DNA from: a virus
Reading direction: 5' to 3' (one strand)
IMG/VR virus record: IMGVR_UViG_3300025687_000010
Location: 1-42,977 of that record
DNA length: 42,977 nt
Part shown: positions 1 to 42,977 of the stretch, one piece after another
Layout of the letters: each line of letters opens with the position of its first letter
Numbering within the stretch: position 1 is the first letter of the stretch
Position numbers and translations under genes: made by a program
Notes under the pieces: model-generated
Databases searched by the model: none
What the model was told of the DNA's origin: nothing
What the model saw: the letters and a program-made list of their open reading frames with translations, nothing else

Positions 1-127
1 AAGGTTCTCCTTTGCCCCACAGAAGGGGCACGGTTTCAGGTTAACCATTGTCGTCCTCCTTCTGCCCCGGCCAGCCGGGGCCCGAATCCCCGAAGAGCTC
101 CTCGACCACCTGAAGAAGGCTCTTAGC
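1..127. repeat. Terminal direct repeat, left copy (contig circularity)
   Basis: Bases 1-127 are identical to bases 42851-42977, the last 127 bases of the window. The copy carries the first 16 codons of the leftward Lar-like zinc-ribbon gene (48 down to 1) and the last part of the leftward gene ending at 41. Joining the two copies restores both genes, so the repeat marks a circular assembly. A length of exactly 127 is a common assembler k-mer size, so this is more likely an assembly overlap than a physical terminal repeat. Confidence 0.95.
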
Positions 128-511
128 CTTCGAGCCCTCCATGTCCTCAGCGATCTCGTACATCATCTCCAGCACCCTCGTAAGGACGGAAGCATAGGCG
201 ACCGCACAGGAGGTGACGACCTCAACTCTCGTGGACTCGCTGGAAGCGAGCTTCTGCTTGAGATCGCTGGTGATCTCATCGAAGGCGTCGCCCCAGGCAT
301 CAGCCTTCTCTTCCGGCACGTGCTCGCCACGCTCCATGGCGAGGTGCATGATGCGGGCTATCGGCTCCCCGATGTCCTCTACGAGGTCCTGCCTGACTCC
401 GGAATCGGCCTTGCTGTCGAAGGTGAGCTGTGCGAAGTCGAGCAACACGTTCCGTGCGGTCGTGATGCAACGCAGGGGTTGTTCCATGGTCATGAATGCG
501 GGGCTCTTCAT
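41..511 (-). CDS. Hypothetical protein, acidic, helical (156 aa)
   Basis: I do not recognise this protein. It is predicted mostly helical and acidic, with many Met and Glu residues (a MYEIAEDMEG segment near residues 118-127) and a Gly/Pro-rich C-terminus (GDSGPGWPG). There is no signal peptide or membrane segment. The ATG at 511 overlaps the stop of the upstream gene by one base (TAATG) and follows a GGGAGG ribosome-binding sequence. Its TAA at 43-41 lies inside the first codons of the next gene, the Lar-like protein, giving an 8-nt overlap (ATGGTTAA). It sits in the leftward operon with the AAA+ ATPase and shares its helical, Met-rich character with the 151-aa neighbour, so the two may be distant relatives or partners. 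Confidence 0.75.
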   Translation of the reverse strand: MKSPAFMTMEQPLRCITTARNVLLDFAQLTFDSKADSGVRQDLVEDIGEPIARIMHLAMERGEHVPEEKADAWGDAFDEITSDLKQKLASSESTRVEVVTSCAVAYASVLTRVLEMMYEIAEDMEGSKAKSLLQVVEELFGDSGPGWPGQKEDDNG

Positions 512-966
512 TACTTTTTCCTCCCAGTTTCGATGTCCTTAATGAGGTCCTCAAGGGAGATAACTCCCTTGCTGATCCGGTCGGTGCTCGGCTTTTCCTC
601 GTCCTCGTCCTTGTCCTCGTTCTTCGTGTTACGCTCGATCCACGTGTCCTCACGGGCGAGTTGCCCCAGTACCATGAGAGCCAGGGCCAGAGCGGCGTTG
701 CCTACGGCAGTCATTCGCTTGGCCTCGTCCTCCATGCCATCCACTGCGGAGCGCATATTCCCCAGAGCTTCGAGGACTTCTGAGTCCTCGCTCTGCGCTG
801 AGATTGCGAACAGCAGATTGTTGAGGGCGATCGTGAGGTTCGCAATGGTCTCACCATCGTTCTCATCGTGGTTCACGGTAACCCGTGAAATAGATGCGAG
901 AGTGGCCCCCAGTACCGTATGTGCCGAATTGCACATACGCATGATGTTCTTGATTTTCTTATCCAT
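511..966 (-). CDS. Hypothetical protein, charged C-terminal tail (151 aa)
   Basis: Unrecognised. The first ~100 residues look all-helical (two or three amphipathic helices around residues 5-90). They are followed by a very charged low-complexity stretch (NTKNEDKDEDEEKP, about residues 119-132) and a short terminal helix ending GRKK. I chose ATG at 966 because AAGGAG lies 8 bases upstream; the in-frame GTG at 975 would abut the ribosome-binding sequence. It lies 12 bases after the VWA-like gene and is coupled by TAATG to the 156-aa gene, so it belongs to the leftward AAA+ operon. Function unknown. Confidence 0.75.
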   Translation of the reverse strand: MDKKIKNIMRMCNSAHTVLGATLASISRVTVNHDENDGETIANLTIALNNLLFAISAQSEDSEVLEALGNMRSAVDGMEDEAKRMTAVGNAALALALMVLGQLAREDTWIERNTKNEDKDEDEEKPSTDRISKGVISLEDLIKDIETGRKK

Positions 967-978
967 GCTCGTCACTCC

Positions 979-1854
979 TTACCGGGATTTGATTCCCTTT
1001 TTCTCCTTGATTTTATCAAGGGTGCTTCTGATCCAGACGACGATTTCATCATCGCTGGCGCTGTCCCAATCCACTCCATCGGAGTGGATGTCTTTGATGT
1101 GGTGGTCCACACCCAAGTCTTTGAGGTACTTCTCAGGCATGCTGGTGGTACTCCCGTATCCACAACCGAAGGTTGAGTCGAAGTCCTTTCGGGCCTCTTT
1201 GATGCCGAAGCATCCCCTGCGGAACGTGGAAGGGTGTGCCATGCACATCGCCATTCGCTCGTCACTCGCCATCACCCCAGCCTTTTTGATGTTGGCAACG
1301 ATTGAGGTGACGTCTCCCTTGTTGTCGTAACTGGTCCAAAGACCAGTTACCTCGACTGAGATTCCACTGTTCTCAAGCACCTTCACGAGTGCCGCAATCG
1401 CCACGCCACGGGTCATGTAAGCAGTCGCTTGCATGTGTCCCAGTGTAGCACACTCGACACCCAGCCTGATCTTCGTACCGTCTGCGGTACGAATCCGGCG
1501 CTTCCTGGTCATGTGGCGCTTATCCCCAGCGATAAATCGCTGAGGATGAAGCACCGGACCGGCAACAGACACGCTCTTCGTGATACGCTCACCCGCAAGG
1601 ATGGCGTTCACTCTGCCCAGCCGTGCCGTGATCTGACGCAACTGGGTCGCTCCTTCGACCCAGCCCTTTGAGGTTCCCATTGCGAAAGCCTCCTCGAAAG
1701 AGGAGGTTTCAGTGAAAGTCTCCGAGCCGGTACGGCTCGAATTGCCGCTTCCGTCGCACTCCCTGTCACGTGAGGCTCTCCACATGTCCTCAACGCAGTT
1801 GAAGTAGGCCAGATGCAGTCTGGGTTTCGGCGTGTGCCACGGGTTGTTAAGCAT
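979..1854 (-). CDS. Probable partner of the AAA+ ATPase; possible degenerate VWA-like fold (291 aa)
   Basis: This protein directly follows the MoxR-type ATPase gene, with its ATG eight bases inside the end of that gene (ATGCTTAA). Residues 50-70 contain a SFEEA...GWVEG motif. Residues ~128-175 read like the first strand and helix of a von Willebrand A domain (IRLGVECATLGHM, then a long Ala-rich helix and ISVEVTGLW), but the metal-binding DxSxS is replaced by ECATLGH. From memory the GW motif plus this fold resembles a phage family of unknown function (DUF7192); I could not check this. MoxR ATPases usually act with VWA proteins encoded beside them, so a substrate-selecting partner is the best guess. 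An in-frame start at 1944 would overlap the ATPase gene by 98 bases and is less likely. Confidence 0.75.
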   Translation of the reverse strand: MLNNPWHTPKPRLHLAYFNCVEDMWRASRDRECDGSGNSSRTGSETFTETSSFEEAFAMGTSKGWVEGATQLRQITARLGRVNAILAGERITKSVSVAGPVLHPQRFIAGDKRHMTRKRRIRTADGTKIRLGVECATLGHMQATAYMTRGVAIAALVKVLENSGISVEVTGLWTSYDNKGDVTSIVANIKKAGVMASDERMAMCMAHPSTFRRGCFGIKEARKDFDSTFGCGYGSTTSMPEKYLKDLGVDHHIKDIHSDGVDWDSASDDEIVVWIRSTLDKIKEKKGIKSR

Positions 1855-3364
1855 GCTTGACTCCTTCCCTGACTCTGTCAGCATCGTTCTCGTCCATCCA
1901 GCCGTAGACGATGTCCTCGACAGCCTCTTCGAGTGACAGGCCACGTGCGACCGTCTGAGCCACCTTCATCGTCTGCCTCTGGCCGACGATGTAGTTCATG
2001 CCGAACTCGTCGGTGACCTTGCGAATCTTCTTGATCGCATTGTGCGACTCCTTCGCCTGACGCTCGTTACCACCCCACGCCAGCGAGGCACGAATCGCCA
2101 AGCACTCTTCGAGGTACTCGTCATACGGCCACGCAACCGGGATCAGCCGGTTCGCAAACGAACCGTCCTGCTTGTTCGCCGTGTTGTAGATGGAGTCAGC
2201 GCCACTGAGCTTCGTGTTGCCCGTGAGAACGATCTTGCAACCGTCCTTTTTCTCGACCTGTTCCCCGTTGGGGAACGTCAGCAGTCCCTGTTCCGTTGCG
2301 GCATTCAGGAACACCGTGACCTCACCGGGAGCCTTATCGACTTCGTCGATCAGGATGAAGTGACCTTCGCACCACGCGTGGTAGAAGGGGGTCGGGTTGT
2401 ACTTGCCGTGCCCATCGTTGTACCCAACGATGTCGTACACCGTCATGTCACCAGTACAGGAGATGATCGTCAGGTCCAGATCGTAGATCCTTGCCAACTG
2501 GCGGCTGGCTTCGGTCTTCCCGCTACCGGCGGGACCGTTGAGGTAGATCGAATCGCCACCGTCGAGGTAGAACTGTGCCTTCTTAAGGCACGTGTGAGCC
2601 AACTCCAGGGTCGGCTCTCCCGGGGCGGGATCGACACGCTTGACGACCGAGGGCATGGTGGACTTGTTGAGAACACCCATGATAAGGTCTTCGACCTTTT
2701 CTTGGGTGATGCCCATCTTGCTGAGTTCGTTCTTGACCTCATCACCGATGGATTCGGTGATGATGGCCTTGAGAATGCCATCGAGTCCGGTGGCGGCGGC
2801 AGGTGCGGGGGTGGGGGTCACGGGTTGCGTCACGGTAGGCTCCTTAACGGGTTCGGGGGTCGGTTCAGCCAAAGGCCATGGCGGCGGTTCCATTGTATGA
2901 GCAATGGACTCAGCGACAGCGGTCATGTTGTCCGTATTGAGACGGCCAATGTTGGCACTTTCAGTGTCGAAGTACCAGACGTCAGTCGGGTGGGCAACTG
3001 TCTGATCGCCACAGACGAAGGTTGGGCAAGCCTCAGTCACATCGAACATGAGTTTCAGAGCTTCGCTCATGAAACTATCGCTTCCCAGTTTTCCGGCGGT
3101 GGCGGCAATCTGGCGGGGTTTCACCCCGGTCCTCAGTCGTTTCACGATCCGCTCTACGAGCTGTTCCTTGCGTGCGTGGTTGTACCACGTGGCGGAAATG
3201 TCGAAGGCGGCGCAGAGCTTTTTAAGCTCTTTGGTGGTGTGGTTGCCCACCAGCGCCATGAGGCTGGATTCCGAAACGGGTGGCGCCACAAGAATGGTCT
3301 TGTGGCTATTGAATCGAGTGTTGTCGTACTCAGCGACAAACGCATCATGGAATGATTTACTCAT
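1847..3364 (-). CDS. MoxR-type AAA+ ATPase with SAP-like N-terminus (505 aa)
   Basis: The C-terminal half is a clear AAA+ domain of the MoxR/dynein-related type: Walker A GPAGSGKT at residues 277-284, Walker B FILIDEVD at 336-343 (D340, E341), sensor-1 Asn in TGNT near 383, and an arginine-finger candidate in FANRL near 406. Residues ~34-80 resemble a SAP or Rho-N nucleic-acid-binding helix-extension-helix motif. Residues ~160-192 are a Pro/Glu/Thr-rich linker. The start at 3364 follows GGAG; upstream in-frame Met codons lack a ribosome-binding sequence. It overlaps the preceding 61-aa gene by eight bases (ATGAGTAA) and is coupled to the VWA-like gene downstream. MoxR ATPases remodel or activate protein complexes by ATP hydrolysis. 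The target here is unknown, and an early host-takeover or replication role is inference. Confidence 0.88.
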   Translation of the reverse strand: MSKSFHDAFVAEYDNTRFNSHKTILVAPPVSESSLMALVGNHTTKELKKLCAAFDISATWYNHARKEQLVERIVKRLRTGVKPRQIAATAGKLGSDSFMSEALKLMFDVTEACPTFVCGDQTVAHPTDVWYFDTESANIGRLNTDNMTAVAESIAHTMEPPPWPLAEPTPEPVKEPTVTQPVTPTPAPAAATGLDGILKAIITESIGDEVKNELSKMGITQEKVEDLIMGVLNKSTMPSVVKRVDPAPGEPTLELAHTCLKKAQFYLDGGDSIYLNGPAGSGKTEASRQLARIYDLDLTIISCTGDMTVYDIVGYNDGHGKYNPTPFYHAWCEGHFILIDEVDKAPGEVTVFLNAATEQGLLTFPNGEQVEKKDGCKIVLTGNTKLSGADSIYNTANKQDGSFANRLIPVAWPYDEYLEECLAIRASLAWGGNERQAKESHNAIKKIRKVTDEFGMNYIVGQRQTMKVAQTVARGLSLEEAVEDIVYGWMDENDADRVREGVKHA

Positions 3365-3542
3365 GGTTTGCTCCATTCTGGTTGGGGTTATCGTGATTAT
3401 CATCACGAACCGGACGCTTTTCCAGCGCCTTGTTGACCAAGTCTCTCAGCTCCTTGGCTGAGAGATCGGTGAGATCGTCGTGGATTCCCAGGTCCTTGCA
3501 AAGCTGTATCATGCTTCGCATGTCCATCTTGAGGTTGTGCAT
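3357..3542 (-). CDS. Small hypothetical protein, operon leader gene (61 aa)
   Basis: Unrecognised. It has a helical N-terminal half with a helix-loop-helix pattern (LCKDLGIHDDLTDLSAKEL) and a hydrophilic Asn/Asp/His-rich tail (about residues 44-61). The pattern resembles a SAP/Rho-N-like motif, as in the N-terminus of the ATPase encoded next. ATG at 3542 follows AAAGGAGCA, the ribosome-binding sequence common to this phage's small leftward genes. A strong hairpin lies just upstream (3564-3599). It is the first gene of the long leftward operon. Confidence 0.7.
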   Translation of the reverse strand: MHNLKMDMRSMIQLCKDLGIHDDLTDLSAKELRDLVNKALEKRPVRDDNHDNPNQNGANHE

Positions 3543-3563: not shown

Positions 3564-3599
3564 GAAAAATCATCCCCCACTATCGTGGGGTGATTTTTC
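3564..3599 (-). promoter_or_regulatory. Leader hairpin upstream of the AAA+ operon
   Basis: An imperfect inverted repeat with arms of about 15 pairs (GAAAAATCA and CCCCAC blocks) closes on a 4-base loop at 3581-3584. It ends about 22 bases before the ATG at 3542. On either strand the stem is followed by T-rich bases, so it could terminate incoming transcription. Its position, repeated before other leftward genes, also fits a 5' mRNA stabiliser or control element. Confidence 0.6.
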
Positions 3600-3684: not shown

Positions 3685-3714
3685 AAAAAAAAAGGGGGAG
3701 CCCGAAGGCTCCCC
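3685..3714 (-). terminator. Rho-independent terminator (leftward)
   Basis: Read leftward, a GGGGAGCC / GGCTCCCC stem with a TTCG loop is followed by nine T residues (A-run at 3685-3693). It lies eight bases after the stop of the 55-aa membrane protein gene and ends the 4724-3722 unit. Confidence 0.9.
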
Positions 3715-3889: not shown

Positions 3890-4251
3890 TAATACTTCAG
3901 CTCCTTCTTGATACAGTCGGCCATCATGGTGAGGGCCTTCAGCCCAGCTTTACGCAAGGGCTCCTTCTGCCGGAAGGTGTCGATCATGTGGTCGGCGATG
4001 GCCGTACCCAGGTTTTCGATGATCGCCCTCTCTTTAGGAGACTCCGGTTCCGGGGTCATCCTTTCGAGGATATCGAATACGGTCCAGAGGTCCCACTGAG
4101 CCGGTCCAGGCGAACGCCAGCCGTGGGCGTTGCCTTCCTTGACCATTTTGTAGAACTCTTCCAGTGAGTCCGCTACCGCTGTGTGCAGGGATTCACGCTT
4201 GGCGCGCAGGGCTTCACCCTTGGCGCCCCTTTTTTTGGATTTGGTTGGCAT
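3889..4251 (-). CDS. Hypothetical protein, basic N-terminus (120 aa)
   Basis: Unrecognised. The first ~20 residues are strongly basic (KSKKRGAKGEALRAKR), suggesting nucleic-acid contact. The rest is predicted helical, with a Trp-containing central loop (HGWRSPGPAQWDLW) and an acidic/basic helix pair to the end. ATG at 4251 follows GGGAG by seven bases. A G/C-rich imperfect hairpin (4268-4303) precedes it. It is coupled by TAATG to the 55-aa membrane gene. Confidence 0.72.
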   Translation of the reverse strand: MPTKSKKRGAKGEALRAKRESLHTAVADSLEEFYKMVKEGNAHGWRSPGPAQWDLWTVFDILERMTPEPESPKERAIIENLGTAIADHMIDTFRQKEPLRKAGLKALTMMADCIKKELKY

Positions 4252-4267
4252 TTTTGCTCCCTTTCAG

Positions 4268-4303
4268 GTTATGGGGAGGGCCAAATGACCCCCCCCGGTT
4301 AAC
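4268..4303 (-). promoter_or_regulatory. Possible leader hairpin (imperfect, G/C run)
   Basis: Read leftward, GTTA (4303-4300) can pair with TAAC (4271-4268), and a run of eight G residues can pair with a C-rich stretch, leaving bulges. The element occupies the same position as the clean hairpins before other leftward genes, but its pairing is weaker. Confidence 0.35.
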
Positions 4304-4325
4304 GGCCAGCGGGTGCCAGCCGAAC

Positions 4326-4724
4326 TTAGTCGAACATCCTCCTCAAGGCGGCGCTGAACTCGATCGCCTCCTTTTCGGAGAGGATGGCACGGTGCTCCGG
4401 ACGGATGTCCAGGCACCCCGCCGCCATGTCATCAAACATCAGCTCGAACATCTCCCAGATCTCCTCGTCGGAGACCTGGCCATTGACGAACGCGTGCGCG
4501 TACGCCAAGCGGGTGGTGGCATTCGCCAGGAGGTAGCCCGTCTCCGGGTCGTCCTCGAAGCTGGCCTCCACGAACTGTTCCATCGAGAGACAGAACTGGT
4601 CCATGGACTCGACGATCTGCACCACGTCGCCCGGATTGGGGTCCAGCCCGGCCTCAATGGCTTCCCGGTGGGCGGGAACCAGCTCGCAGAGGGTTTCGGC
4701 GTAGATTGAAATTTGATCGTACAT
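4326..4724 (-). CDS. Hypothetical acidic protein (132 aa)
   Basis: Unrecognised. Strongly acidic and helical throughout, with repeated EE/ED/DD pairs and Met/Phe-rich patches (EMFELMFDDMAAG). There is no membrane segment. Small acidic early phage proteins often bind host nucleic-acid-binding enzymes or mimic DNA; that is only a general expectation here. ATG at 4724 follows AAAGGAGCA. A perfect 12-bp hairpin stands 37 bases upstream, so this gene has the shared leftward start architecture. It is the first gene downstream of the divergent region at 4725-4931. Confidence 0.75.
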   Translation of the reverse strand: MYDQISIYAETLCELVPAHREAIEAGLDPNPGDVVQIVESMDQFCLSMEQFVEASFEDDPETGYLLANATTRLAYAHAFVNGQVSDEEIWEMFELMFDDMAAGCLDIRPEHRAILSEKEAIEFSAALRRMFD

Positions 4725-4761
4725 GGCGTTGCTCCTTTAATAAGGTGTTAAACATAAGCGA

Positions 4762-4797
4762 GGCTAATTCCCCGCTCGGTTTATTGGGGAATTAGCC
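4762..4797. promoter_or_regulatory. Perfect 12-bp inverted repeat in the divergent region
   Basis: GGCTAATTCCCC (4762-4773) and GGGGAATTAGCC (4786-4797) pair perfectly around a 12-base loop. A shorter TTAGCC...GGCTAA repeat follows at 4805-4822. There is no T-run on either side, so a terminator is unlikely. It could be the leader hairpin of the gene starting at 4724, or an operator between the leftward gene and the rightward promoter. Confidence 0.65.
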
Positions 4798-4839
4798 GTG
4801 GTGGTTAGCCTCAAAGGGCTAAGGTCGAAAAGAATTTTC

Positions 4840-4869
4840 TTGACAACGATAATTTCGGGGACACATAAT
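4840..4869 (+). promoter_or_regulatory. Sigma70-like promoter for the rightward late region
   Basis: A perfect -35 TTGACA (4840-4845), an 18-base spacer and -10 CATAAT (4864-4869, 5 of 6 consensus) lie in an AT-rich stretch. The GTG start of the first rightward gene follows about 60 bases downstream. No gene occupies 4725-4931 apart from this promoter and the hairpins. Confidence 0.75.
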
Positions 4870-4931
4870 ATAGGTTATGAGGGGTCCGGAATGGTTTTAC
4901 TGCTTACTTAGCTAGTCCAACAGGAGATAGG

Positions 4932-5318
4932 GTGAATAATATAATAAGCCAGCCTGAGGATGATTATCCTATCGAGGCTGAGAATGAGGATAGTGGACTA
5001 CCCTCGCCCTCGGCCAACAGTGAGGATAAAACAACTGAGGCACTTGGTTCCATTGTGCTAGATATGGCTATAAAGCTACAAAGAAACCGAAAGACGCCCC
5101 TCTCAGAGAAAGCCAACATCCTATCGAAGTTGGTCAAAGCCCATTCGGACCTAGTCAAGAGTCGACGCACGATAAATCCTGAAAGCGTCAGGATAAATGC
5201 AGGCGTGATCTTGATCCCCGGTAAGAGCGAGGACTGGGAGAACGCGGCCAAGCGTGAACTCGACCGCGCCCAGAACCTCATCAACCCGCCTAGCCCATCT
5301 CCTTCTGAAGAGCCTTGA
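4932..5318 (+). CDS. Possible terminase small subunit (128 aa)
   Basis: GTG start with AGGAG six bases upstream, first gene behind the rightward promoter. The N-terminus is acidic and Pro/Ser-rich (residues 5-35). Residues ~40-80 form helices with a TPLSEKANILSKLVKAHSDLVKSRR pattern split across two helices. A short beta-like segment (INAGVILIPGK) is followed by a helix with a Trp. The position at the left end of the packaging genes and the helix-rich centre fit a small terminase (DNA-recognition) subunit, but I see no definite HTH and the large subunit is 1.3 kb away. The 3' end overlaps the convergent leftward gene by 29 bases. Confidence 0.6.
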   Translation: MNNIISQPEDDYPIEAENEDSGLPSPSANSEDKTTEALGSIVLDMAIKLQRNRKTPLSEKANILSKLVKAHSDLVKSRRTINPESVRINAGVILIPGKSEDWENAAKRELDRAQNLINPPSPSPSEEP

Positions 5319-5553
5319 ACATGTAGATGCGGGCCTTCCGGCTGGGGCAGTGCCCGTCCTCGAACTTGCAGTCCAGCATCTGCCTCGTGAAGGCGTGGGC
5401 GAGGGACTGATGAACACCCTGGAGAACGAGCGCCTCGTAGACGTCCTCAGCCAGATTCGCGACCTTTAGGGCGTCCTTCGACCGGCTCTTTGAGAGCCTG
5501 CCGATTCGGCGCTCGGTCTCGACCTTCTGCTGGGCTTTGTTCGCGGTAGTCAT
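5290..5553 (-). CDS. Hypothetical basic protein (87 aa)
   Basis: Unrecognised. Rich in Lys/Arg (RRIGRLSKSRSKDALK near the N-terminus) and helical, with a CKFEDGHCPS segment (two Cys separated by six residues) near residues 62-71. A clean AAAGGAGCA ribosome-binding sequence precedes the ATG at 5553, and a strong hairpin precedes that, as for its leftward neighbours. It converges with and overlaps the last 29 bases of the possible small-terminase gene. It lies antisense to late transcription. Function unknown. Confidence 0.65.
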   Translation of the reverse strand: MTTANKAQQKVETERRIGRLSKSRSKDALKVANLAEDVYEALVLQGVHQSLAHAFTRQMLDCKFEDGHCPSRKARIYMFKALQKEMG

Positions 5554-5582
5554 GATTTGCTCCTTTTGTTGAGTGTGAATGA

Positions 5583-5618
5583 GGGGCGAGTCCCCTCGCT
5601 TTGGAGGGCGCTCGCCCC
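5583..5618 (-). promoter_or_regulatory. Leader hairpin upstream of the 87-aa gene
   Basis: The outer arms GGGGCGAG (5583-5590) and CTCGCCCC (5611-5618) pair perfectly. The inner arms CCCTC (5593-5597) and GAGGG (5604-5608) pair after a small internal loop. The hairpin ends about 30 bases before the ATG at 5553. There is no T-run, so it is not a terminator. Confidence 0.65.
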
Positions 5619-5697
5619 GGTGGTTGTGAGAGCGTGAGAGGGCGTAGAGCGTAGCCGGTGGAGTGAGGGAGCGACTTAGGCCGGTGTGGTAAGAAGC

Positions 5698-5732
5698 AAA
5701 AAAAAAGGTAAAGAGGGCCCGAAGGCCCCCTT
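5698..5732 (-). terminator. Rho-independent terminator (leftward)
   Basis: Read leftward, a GGGCC / GGCCC stem with a TTCG loop, extended by outer pairs, is followed by TTTACC and nine T residues. It lies 14 bases after the stop of the 106-aa gene ending at 5746 and isolates it from the 87-aa gene. Confidence 0.85.
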
Positions 5733-5745
5733 CACCCTATTCGGC

Positions 5746-6066
5746 CTAGTAGCCAACAACCCCCGCAGACTCCAGGATGCCCTTCAGCTCCCAGAGCAAC
5801 TGCTCCTTGGCCATGTCGTAACGCTCGTCGACCCCGACGGGCTCCTCAGTCAGGAAGTCCCGGTACCAGAGCAGGGAGGCAAGGGCCGAGACCCTGGTGG
5901 CCTCGTTGAGGTTGCGCAGGCCAACCCCAGCGCAGTTACGCTGGAGCACCCAGATGTGGTACCGAGCCTTATTGTAGACGGACTCGCACTCGTAGTCGTC
6001 GTCGTGGCACTCGTGGTATTCGTACTTGGAGGTCTTACGCAGTTCGGTTGCTGTGATGACGTTCAT
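5746..6066 (-). CDS. Hypothetical protein (106 aa)
   Basis: Unrecognised. Residues ~14-28 are rich in Tyr, His, Glu and Asp (YEYHECHDDDYECES), which could bind metal. The remainder is helical with a Trp/Tyr-rich centre. ATG at 6066 follows AAAGGAGCA with seven-base spacing. An in-frame upstream GTG would read through the leader hairpin and lacks a ribosome-binding sequence. A near-perfect hairpin (6087-6122) precedes it and a terminator follows, so it is a single-gene unit lying antisense within the late region. Confidence 0.7.
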   Translation of the reverse strand: MNVITATELRKTSKYEYHECHDDDYECESVYNKARYHIWVLQRNCAGVGLRNLNEATRVSALASLLWYRDFLTEEPVGVDERYDMAKEQLLWELKGILESAGVVGY

Positions 6067-6221: not shown

Positions 6222-6416
6222 ATGAAGCTATTAGGACCGAATGTCTCTGGAATCGTGAGTAGTCGCAAGGCGATGAAGATGCCGATGTTCAATAATCGTG
6301 CATTTAGCGTATTGCCGCGTGTGAGGGGCAATTTGCTGGCGTCTGGTGCGTTCAGGGGGAGCAGGATATTGGCGAAGTATCATGGTTTGAAGACCGGAAA
6401 GGTTGGTAGTCGATGA
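6222..6416 (+). CDS. Small basic hypothetical protein (64 aa)
   Basis: Unrecognised. Rich in Lys and Arg, with no acidic residues that I can find and a Gly-rich C-terminal half. It therefore probably binds nucleic acid. AGGGG lies seven bases before the ATG. The stop overlaps the next start (ATGA at 6413). It lies directly before the acidic 79-aa gene and TerL, so a DNA-packaging accessory role is possible but unproved. Confidence 0.65.
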   Translation: MKLLGPNVSGIVSSRKAMKMPMFNNRAFSVLPRVRGNLLASGAFRGSRILAKYHGLKTGKVGSR

Positions 6417-42503: not shown

Positions 42504-42898
42504 CACTCCGCCTCCTTCGTCATGACAATGACGGTGACAGGGCCTTTGTCGGAGAGGATGGCCTTCATCTGCGGGTAGAAGTTACACATCGTCTGGCTTC
42601 TGCGGCTTGGCGGAAAGTTCATGGCCCTCTCCAACAGTTCATCAGCCTGCGCCAGCTTTGCCATCACATCGGCGTATCGGTCACGCCAGCGGGTAACCTC
42701 AGCCTCAAGCTTTTCGATGCGGTCATCTACGGCCCGCCGGTTCCAAAGCTTGGCGGCATGATCTGGATCATGCCAAGCCGAAAGAGGGCCACGAGCGCCA
42801 CATGTGGTGCACACAAAAAAGCGGTTAAACCTACTGTGGTCTAGGTCCAAAAGGTTCTCCTTTGCCCCACAGAAGGGGCACGGTTTCAGGTTAACCAT
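42503..42898 (-). CDS. Lar-like restriction-alleviation-type zinc-ribbon protein (131 aa)
   Basis: Residues 5-12 (LKPCPFCG) and 29-36 (VCTTCGAR), followed by HAAKLWNRR, match the Lar_restr_allev family, whose founding member weakens host type I restriction; most members are uncharacterised. The C-terminal half is a coiled coil (RIEKLEAEVTRWRDRY) plus helical tail. AGGAGG precedes the ATG, whose first bases overlap the previous stop (8-nt overlap). The start lies in the terminal repeat. Confidence 0.8.
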   Translation of the reverse strand: MVNLKPCPFCGAKENLLDLDHSRFNRFFVCTTCGARGPLSAWHDPDHAAKLWNRRAVDDRIEKLEAEVTRWRDRYADVMAKLAQADELLERAMNFPPSRRSQTMCNFYPQMKAILSDKGPVTVIVMTKEAE

Positions 42899-42977
42899 TG
42901 TCGTCCTCCTTCTGCCCCGGCCAGCCGGGGCCCGAATCCCCGAAGAGCTCCTCGACCACCTGAAGAAGGCTCTTAGC
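42851..42977. repeat. Terminal direct repeat, right copy
   Basis: Exact second copy of bases 1-127. It carries the start of the Lar-like gene (ATG at 42898-42896) and, at 42891-42977, the last 28 codons plus stop of the 156-residue gene whose full copy is at 41-511. With one copy removed the genome is 42,850 bp. Confidence 0.95.

Follow-up and report, generated by a model that had tools for sequence, protein, structure and literature searches.

The window analysed here, a 42,977-nt stretch of viral DNA, encodes an AAA+ ATPase followed by a 291-aa protein of the Pfam family DUF7192, and we consider it probable that the two form a phage remodelling machine of the MoxR type, with a metal-free VWA adaptor whose finger would sit in the pore of the ATPase ring and a client that would be strained by ATP hydrolysis. 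The ATPase belongs to the MoxR helix-2-insert clade (NorQ/CbbQ/CobS), and DUF7192 seems to be a reduced, metal-free VWA relative, in which the metal site is lost and the finger seems to have been kept. On this identification, the widespread phrog_249 pair belongs to the known MoxR-VWA kind. A gene pair found in hundreds of isolate genomes, where annotations read hypothetical protein or give the misleading label porphyrin biosynthesis, would gain a testable mechanism.

An earlier sequence-only reading of this DNA had proposed that a MoxR ATPase is paired with a degenerate VWA-like protein, and the VWA-like core that it implied is predicted both by the structural model and by the fold matches described below. 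It had also called the pair an undescribed system, which goes too far for the genes and for the type of pair, as both genes fall into named families and viral MoxR-VWA pairs are already published (PMC7824862, PMC7911831, PMC8651126), but no earlier description appears to identify DUF7192 as the VWA partner. In the paper library searched, no publication names DUF7192, and the Pfam and PHROG families carry no assigned function.

Operon layout and the ATPase

The window and the contig L002 represent the same genome, with L002 reading through the end-to-start junction, and the window carries an identical 127-bp direct terminal repeat at positions 1-127 and 42851-42977. Because the terminal bases are identical and L002 spans the junction, the phage genome, with a length of about 42.85 kb, is probably complete and either circular or circularly permuted. 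Its rightward genes include the large terminase, a portal or head-tail adaptor and the major head protein; RecE- and Bet-like recombination proteins are among those encoded leftward, and close to the right end of the window lies a replication initiator.

The operon of the pair is a separate leftward unit, starting after two terminator-like hairpins (3575..3590, minus strand, and 3695-3714), each of them a consensus match only, near shuffled expectation. Five genes follow on the minus strand, with a clear ribosome-binding site before each: a 61-aa ORF (3357..3542; a good Shine-Dalgarno sequence, AAAGGAG; 8-nt overlap with the ATPase start), the 505-aa ATPase of the phrog_249 type (1847..3364; GGAG before its ATG), the 291-aa DUF7192 (phrog_1909) protein, that is, the VWA-like, finger-bearing partner (979..1854; Shine-Dalgarno GGAAGGAG), and two proteins of 151 aa (511..966; Shine-Dalgarno and ATG at 966) and 156 aa (41..511; Shine-Dalgarno and ATG). 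The gene positions of the sequence-only reading were all right, and the overlap of 8 nt that it noted between ATPase and partner is exact. Pfam and PHROG searches returned no family match for the 61-aa ORF or for the 151-aa and 156-aa genes. The motif which the 61-aa protein had been said to share with the ATPase is no more than a brief KELxxL run that no family match supports, and no result supports its relevance to the pair; with no relative of this protein beside other ATPase-DUF7192 pairs, we dropped it as a candidate part of the machine.

The ATPase carries an intact Walker A (GPAGSGKT, residues 277-284, 2513..2536, minus strand), Walker B (FILIDEVD, 336-343, 2336..2359, minus strand) and sensor-1 (GNT, 382-384), just as read from the sequence earlier, and its Arg-finger candidate R406 (2147..2149, minus strand, invariant in A5 and A7) and R463 are also intact. 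Pfam places it in AAA_5 (E 5e-14). The AAA part is modelled with confidence, and the model contains the helix-2 insert hairpin (about residues 309-323, VYDIVGYNDGHGKYN, 2396..2440, minus strand), in which G314 is present in 58/58 relatives and G320 in 56/58. Among PDB folds, the ATPase model matches those of NorQ and CbbQ best (E 1e-14 to 1e-11, TMt about 0.8), and a profile of 58 ATPase relatives matches CobS over the whole AAA module (E 4.5e-20), followed by CbbQ (1.6e-12) and NorQ (5e-11), and also Midasin.

In PHROG, the ATPase falls into phrog_249 (E 1e-36), which is labelled "porphyrin biosynthesis". This label, the CobS match across the whole AAA module, the CobT-like VWA relatives in other phages and a suggestion made for viral CobST (PMC8651126) would all fit a chelatase helper resembling CobS-CobT, boosting cobalamin synthesis together with the CobN of the host. 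We hold such a role to be highly improbable: the window ATPase has no match to the NCBIfam CobS equivalog TIGR01650 and the ATPase of phage K reaches 25.4 bits against a cut-off of 558.55, CobN is encoded in none of 12 phage records, the partner lacks a MIDAS, and the phages examined for CobT_C have no match to it at the pair. The pair is, moreover, common in phages of Staphylococcus, hosts that are not known to make cobalamin. Membership in a cobaltochelatase was accordingly rejected on the CobN count and the unmatched equivalog cut-off, and the same two results are the reason why the porphyrin label should not be taken as the function of the ATPase.

The N-terminal third of the ATPase differs among phages. 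In the window, residues 32-92 (3089..3271, minus strand) are modelled as a small helical domain (pLDDT about 60-85), in agreement with the SAP/Rho-N-like segment noticed earlier, but the family matches all stay below threshold: SAP with E 0.05 (13.7 of 23.9 bits), Rho_N with E 0.21 (12 of 24.9 bits) and SAP_new25 with E 0.046, and for the same segment of the nearest relative (L027) Rho_N with E 0.008 (16.6 of 24.9 bits). A SAP-like domain at this N-terminus is weakly supported.

Three further observations concern ATPases of this group. Among those gathered, the window ATPase is closest to that of Gordonia phage GMA7, which is paired with a CobT-like VWA protein, and may therefore have branched off early, between the two types of pair. 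Two contigs (L034 and L035, 4740-6793) share an ATPase gene split in the same way: the piece with Walker A stops at 5165, close to the helix-2 insert, and the piece with Walker B begins at 6290. Neither an ORF of 90 aa nor an Rfam family lies in the gap of about 1.1 kb, and an intron, searched for in Rfam in L034, was not found. Lastly, in Staphylococcus phage K (AY176327, L011, 3902-4786) the annotated ORF15 (4202-4786) is missing the first part of the AAA module; both the reading frame and the similarity at protein level continue upstream, and the ORF of a related record (L036) has 387 aa.

The VWA-like partner

The partner is a member of DUF7192 (PF23822; E 1e-19, 71.3 bits against a cut-off of 27), its sole match in the Pfam scan, and of phrog_1909 (E 5e-21). 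Single window proteins retrieved near-identical viral contigs only, and relatives were found by searching the viral contigs with a 5-row alignment; 58 partner relatives were taken from them, and column counts refer to 59 DUF7192 proteins.

Supplied with the 58 relatives, AlphaFold2 gave a model of the partner with pLDDT 86.7 and pTM 0.82, comprising a strand at 128-134, a helix at 143-162 and strands at 166-176 and 182-190. The first three of these nearly coincide with the VWA strand and helix that the sequence-only reading had placed at 128-175, and together the four make up the predicted VWA-like core (residues 128-190, 1285..1473, minus strand), in which model, fold matches and profile agree; a further strand and helix come later. 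Directly before VWA strand 1 lies the predicted pore finger (residues 94-127, 1474..1575, minus strand), supported by the model, by conservation and by the alignment with the CobT-VWA profile. It is modelled as strand-helix-strand (94-96, 104-108 and 115-117), with G99 in 58/59 and G110 in 56/59 DUF7192 proteins; position 112 is a proline in 57/59 and a lysine in the window.

A Foldseek search of the PDB returned, as the four best matches of the partner, the VWA domain of NorD from NorQ-NorD complexes (best E 6e-4, prob 1.0), with several other VWA folds matching more weakly (C2a, TRAP, collagen VI, Ku, TFIIH). In the viral fold library, DUF7192 models rank first and the next named matches are phage CobT/VWFA proteins. 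As a sequence test independent of the partner model, we compared the 59 DUF7192 proteins with eight phage CobT VWA domains using hhalign, which gave scores of 40-46 (prob 70-88) over an alignment that starts before strand 1 and spans finger, strand 1, helix 1 and strand 2. The controls stayed lower: none of 100 column-permuted decoys scored above 24.9, the reversed profiles reached 18.8 and 21.2, and the profile of the ATPase gave 22.4.

The link to VWA is reached solely by fold and profile-profile comparison. With a low TM-score of 0.25 between partner and NorD (rmsd about 8 A over 153 columns), the two have no more than part of the VWA fold in common. A DUF7192 profile found no useful match among PDB sequences, at E 0.1 Pfam VWA (PF00092) was found in none of 11 genomes that bear the pair, the window among them, and CobT_C (PF11775) had no match at the pair in seven pair-bearing phages, with the GMA7 control above cut-off; a single weak CobT_C match (E 0.014) lies elsewhere in the L015 genome, away from the pair. 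DUF7192 could be some other alpha/beta protein, no VWA relative, that merely travels with the ATPase, a reading which the low TM-scores, the short alignment to NorD and the missing Pfam VWA match would suit. We nevertheless judge it improbable, because the PDB fold search, the viral fold search and the decoy-controlled profile comparison agree on the VWA partners of same-clade ATPases.

The metal site expected in a VWA domain is dismantled. In the alignment, the DxSxS of CobT faces ECATL in the window partner (residues 134-138, 1441..1455, minus strand), which upholds the earlier remark that DxSxS is absent; the Asp is retained in 11/59 relatives and D-x-[ST]-x-[ST] in 1/59. Judging from these columns, the MIDAS is lost in nearly all of the 59 relatives. 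The strongest motif of DUF7192 is instead the near-invariant and family-specific HPSxLRRxxF (207-216), whose signature HPSxLRR reads HPSTFRR in the window (207-213, 1216..1236, minus strand), with R212 in 59/59.

Two variants of the family were also seen. DUF7192 proteins of Rhizobium phages (L006 and L008) have an extra DUF5710-like segment in their N-terminal 100 residues (E 0.0012 in L006), present in 4/59 relatives, and in L022 the family appears as two successive ORFs (2326-2928 and 2983-3519), perhaps a split or frameshifted gene.

Conservation of the pair and its neighbours

The pair occurs in numerous phages unrelated to one another, among them the Staphylococcus phage K group, which is applied in phage therapy. 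Because sampling by the ATPase biases the choice, loci were counted through DUF7192 alone, which gathered 87 of them, some near-duplicates. A same-strand ATPase lies close by in 85/87, the other two being cut by the contig end beside the gene; the pairing is thus conserved, in line with the sequence-only reading. Gene order is reversed in roughly a third of the loci, and any other neighbour family reaches at most 14/65 loci. A three-gene arrangement, with a separate intact VWA protein at the reversed-order loci, was rejected, as no consistent third gene was seen and the isolate genomes tested have no Pfam VWA.

When isolate phages were sampled via the ATPase, DUF7192 was nearby in 10/10, downstream in nine and upstream in Enterococcus phage vB_CECAV_04 (L014), where a 387-aa protein with no Pfam or PHROG match (4786-5949) directly follows the ATPase. 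By tblastn, the phage K partner was found in 236 Staphylococcus phage records and the phage K ATPase in 236. A first genome scan for DUF7192 found nothing; a second yielded seven bacterial MAG contigs, for which a prophage or a mis-binned virus is possible, with the ATPase adjacent in 5/7 and the other two cut at the end. A DNA-level search of the phage collection and a protein search of plasmids returned nothing. For 49 pairs, the distance matrices of ATPase and partner correlate with r 0.86, where shuffling reaches at most 0.20; shared phage ancestry could suffice for this correlation.

DUF7192 is absent from eight phages with a CobT-like VWA partner. Since pair-bearing genomes lack a Pfam VWA and the CobT-like phages lack DUF7192, the two families look like alternatives for one slot. 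In two loci, a pair of DUF7192 copies adjoins one ATPase (L052, 2974-3822 and 3884-4732; L059, 3803-4681 and 7170-8084), so one motor may use two adaptors there.

Genes around the pair include RecA and PD-(D/E)XK nucleases in some groups, and head genes in the Rhizobium phage group. The last of these arrangements would suit a virion-assembly chaperone that helps to fold or process structural proteins, for which viral MoxR-VWA pairs offer a precedent: MoxR-vWA pairs of jumbo phages have been proposed to act in assembly, and such a role is reported for the tail of ATV (PMC7824862). We regard this role as possible though unlikely, considering that the leftward operon of the window runs opposite to the structural genes and that the neighbours in other groups are the recombination or nuclease genes just named.

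A machine for counter-defence or host takeover, dismantling a defence or transcription complex of the host, is conceivable but in our view doubtful. The accessory operon of small genes with no assigned function, the spread across unrelated phages and the variable N-terminal modules, which could set host-specific clients, are all consistent with it. Nonetheless, no PADLOC defence family matched (the ATPase has a 15-bit P-loop match only), and the pair stays nearly constant across phages of very different hosts, which speaks for a client that is general and not host-specific. Counter-defence and an action on host nucleic-acid enzymes had both been suggested from the sequence; for counter-defence no PADLOC family fits, and neither suggestion drew support from any result.

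Proposed mechanism and comparison with known systems

For the MoxR-type remodelling machine that we favour, the mechanistic precedent comes from PMC13036017 and PMC9976466. Going by its clade, the ATPase would assemble into an AAA+ ring. The strand-helix-strand finger of DUF7192 (94-127) would enter the ring pore and be held there by the helix-2 inserts, as NorD is by NorQ, and ATP hydrolysis would then turn or pull the VWA domain, straining a client held by the partner. In NorD, the finger (residues 403-448) is inserted in the NorQ pore (PMC13036017) and linked through one strand to the MIDAS, and MIDAS mutations abolish client activation while NorQ binding is kept (PMC9976466). A partner that keeps the finger and has no MIDAS should therefore still engage the motor and hold its client otherwise.

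As the partner has no metal-ion adhesion site, unlike NorD or CobT, client binding must on this mechanism be metal-independent, and the conserved HPSxLRR face is perhaps the obvious candidate for the grip. The pair would be a natural case in which to test whether MoxR machines require the metal site to hold their clients. The N-terminal modules, variable between phages on both proteins, probably select the client. Because of the SAP-like and DUF5710-like modules and the RecA and PD-(D/E)XK neighbours, we lean weakly to a nucleoprotein, from phage DNA metabolism or from the host, as the likeliest single guess, a tentative one. A more far-reaching proposal, which we find rather unlikely, is that DUF7192 defines a mainly phage, metal-independent class of MoxR-VWA machine, in which an HPSxLRR clamp replaces the MIDAS and which, during infection, unlocks a host nucleoprotein or defence complex.

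Several known systems share parts of this scheme. In the CbbQ-CbbO rubisco activase, CbbQ has the clade and fold of the window ATPase. CbbO, on the other hand, carries an intact VWA domain, and the window has no rubisco context. McrB-McrC couples an AAA+ ring to its partner through a finger in the pore, as proposed here, but McrC lacks a VWA domain (PMC13036017) and is a nuclease; the window pair showed no match to McrC. The jumbo-phage system (PMC7824862) likewise joins a phage MoxR ATPase to a VWA co-chaperone; it comes with a metallopeptidase, whereas no peptidase domain and no intact VWA were found for the window pair.

The CobS-CobT-like pairs of Gordonia phage GMA7 and of haloviruses (PMC8651126, PMC7911831) are two-gene virus modules as well, and GMA7_72 matches phrog_249, the ATPase family of the window pair. 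Finger and VWA start of the phage CobT-like proteins can be aligned with DUF7192, but these partners are about 600-860 aa long and have DxSxS and TDG intact, and genomes of the Gordonia type contain no DUF7192. The NorQ-NorD system of Paracoccus, whose client is cNOR (PMC13036017, PMC9976466), resembles the window pair in its adjacent genes, in the AAA+ clade with a helix-2 insert and, going by the partner model, in a VWA-like core with an insertion directly before VWA strand 1. NorD has a long N-terminal domain and requires its MIDAS for client activation, whereas DUF7192, at 291 aa, has no MIDAS; the two halves of NorQ-NorD are the best fold matches of the two halves of the window pair.
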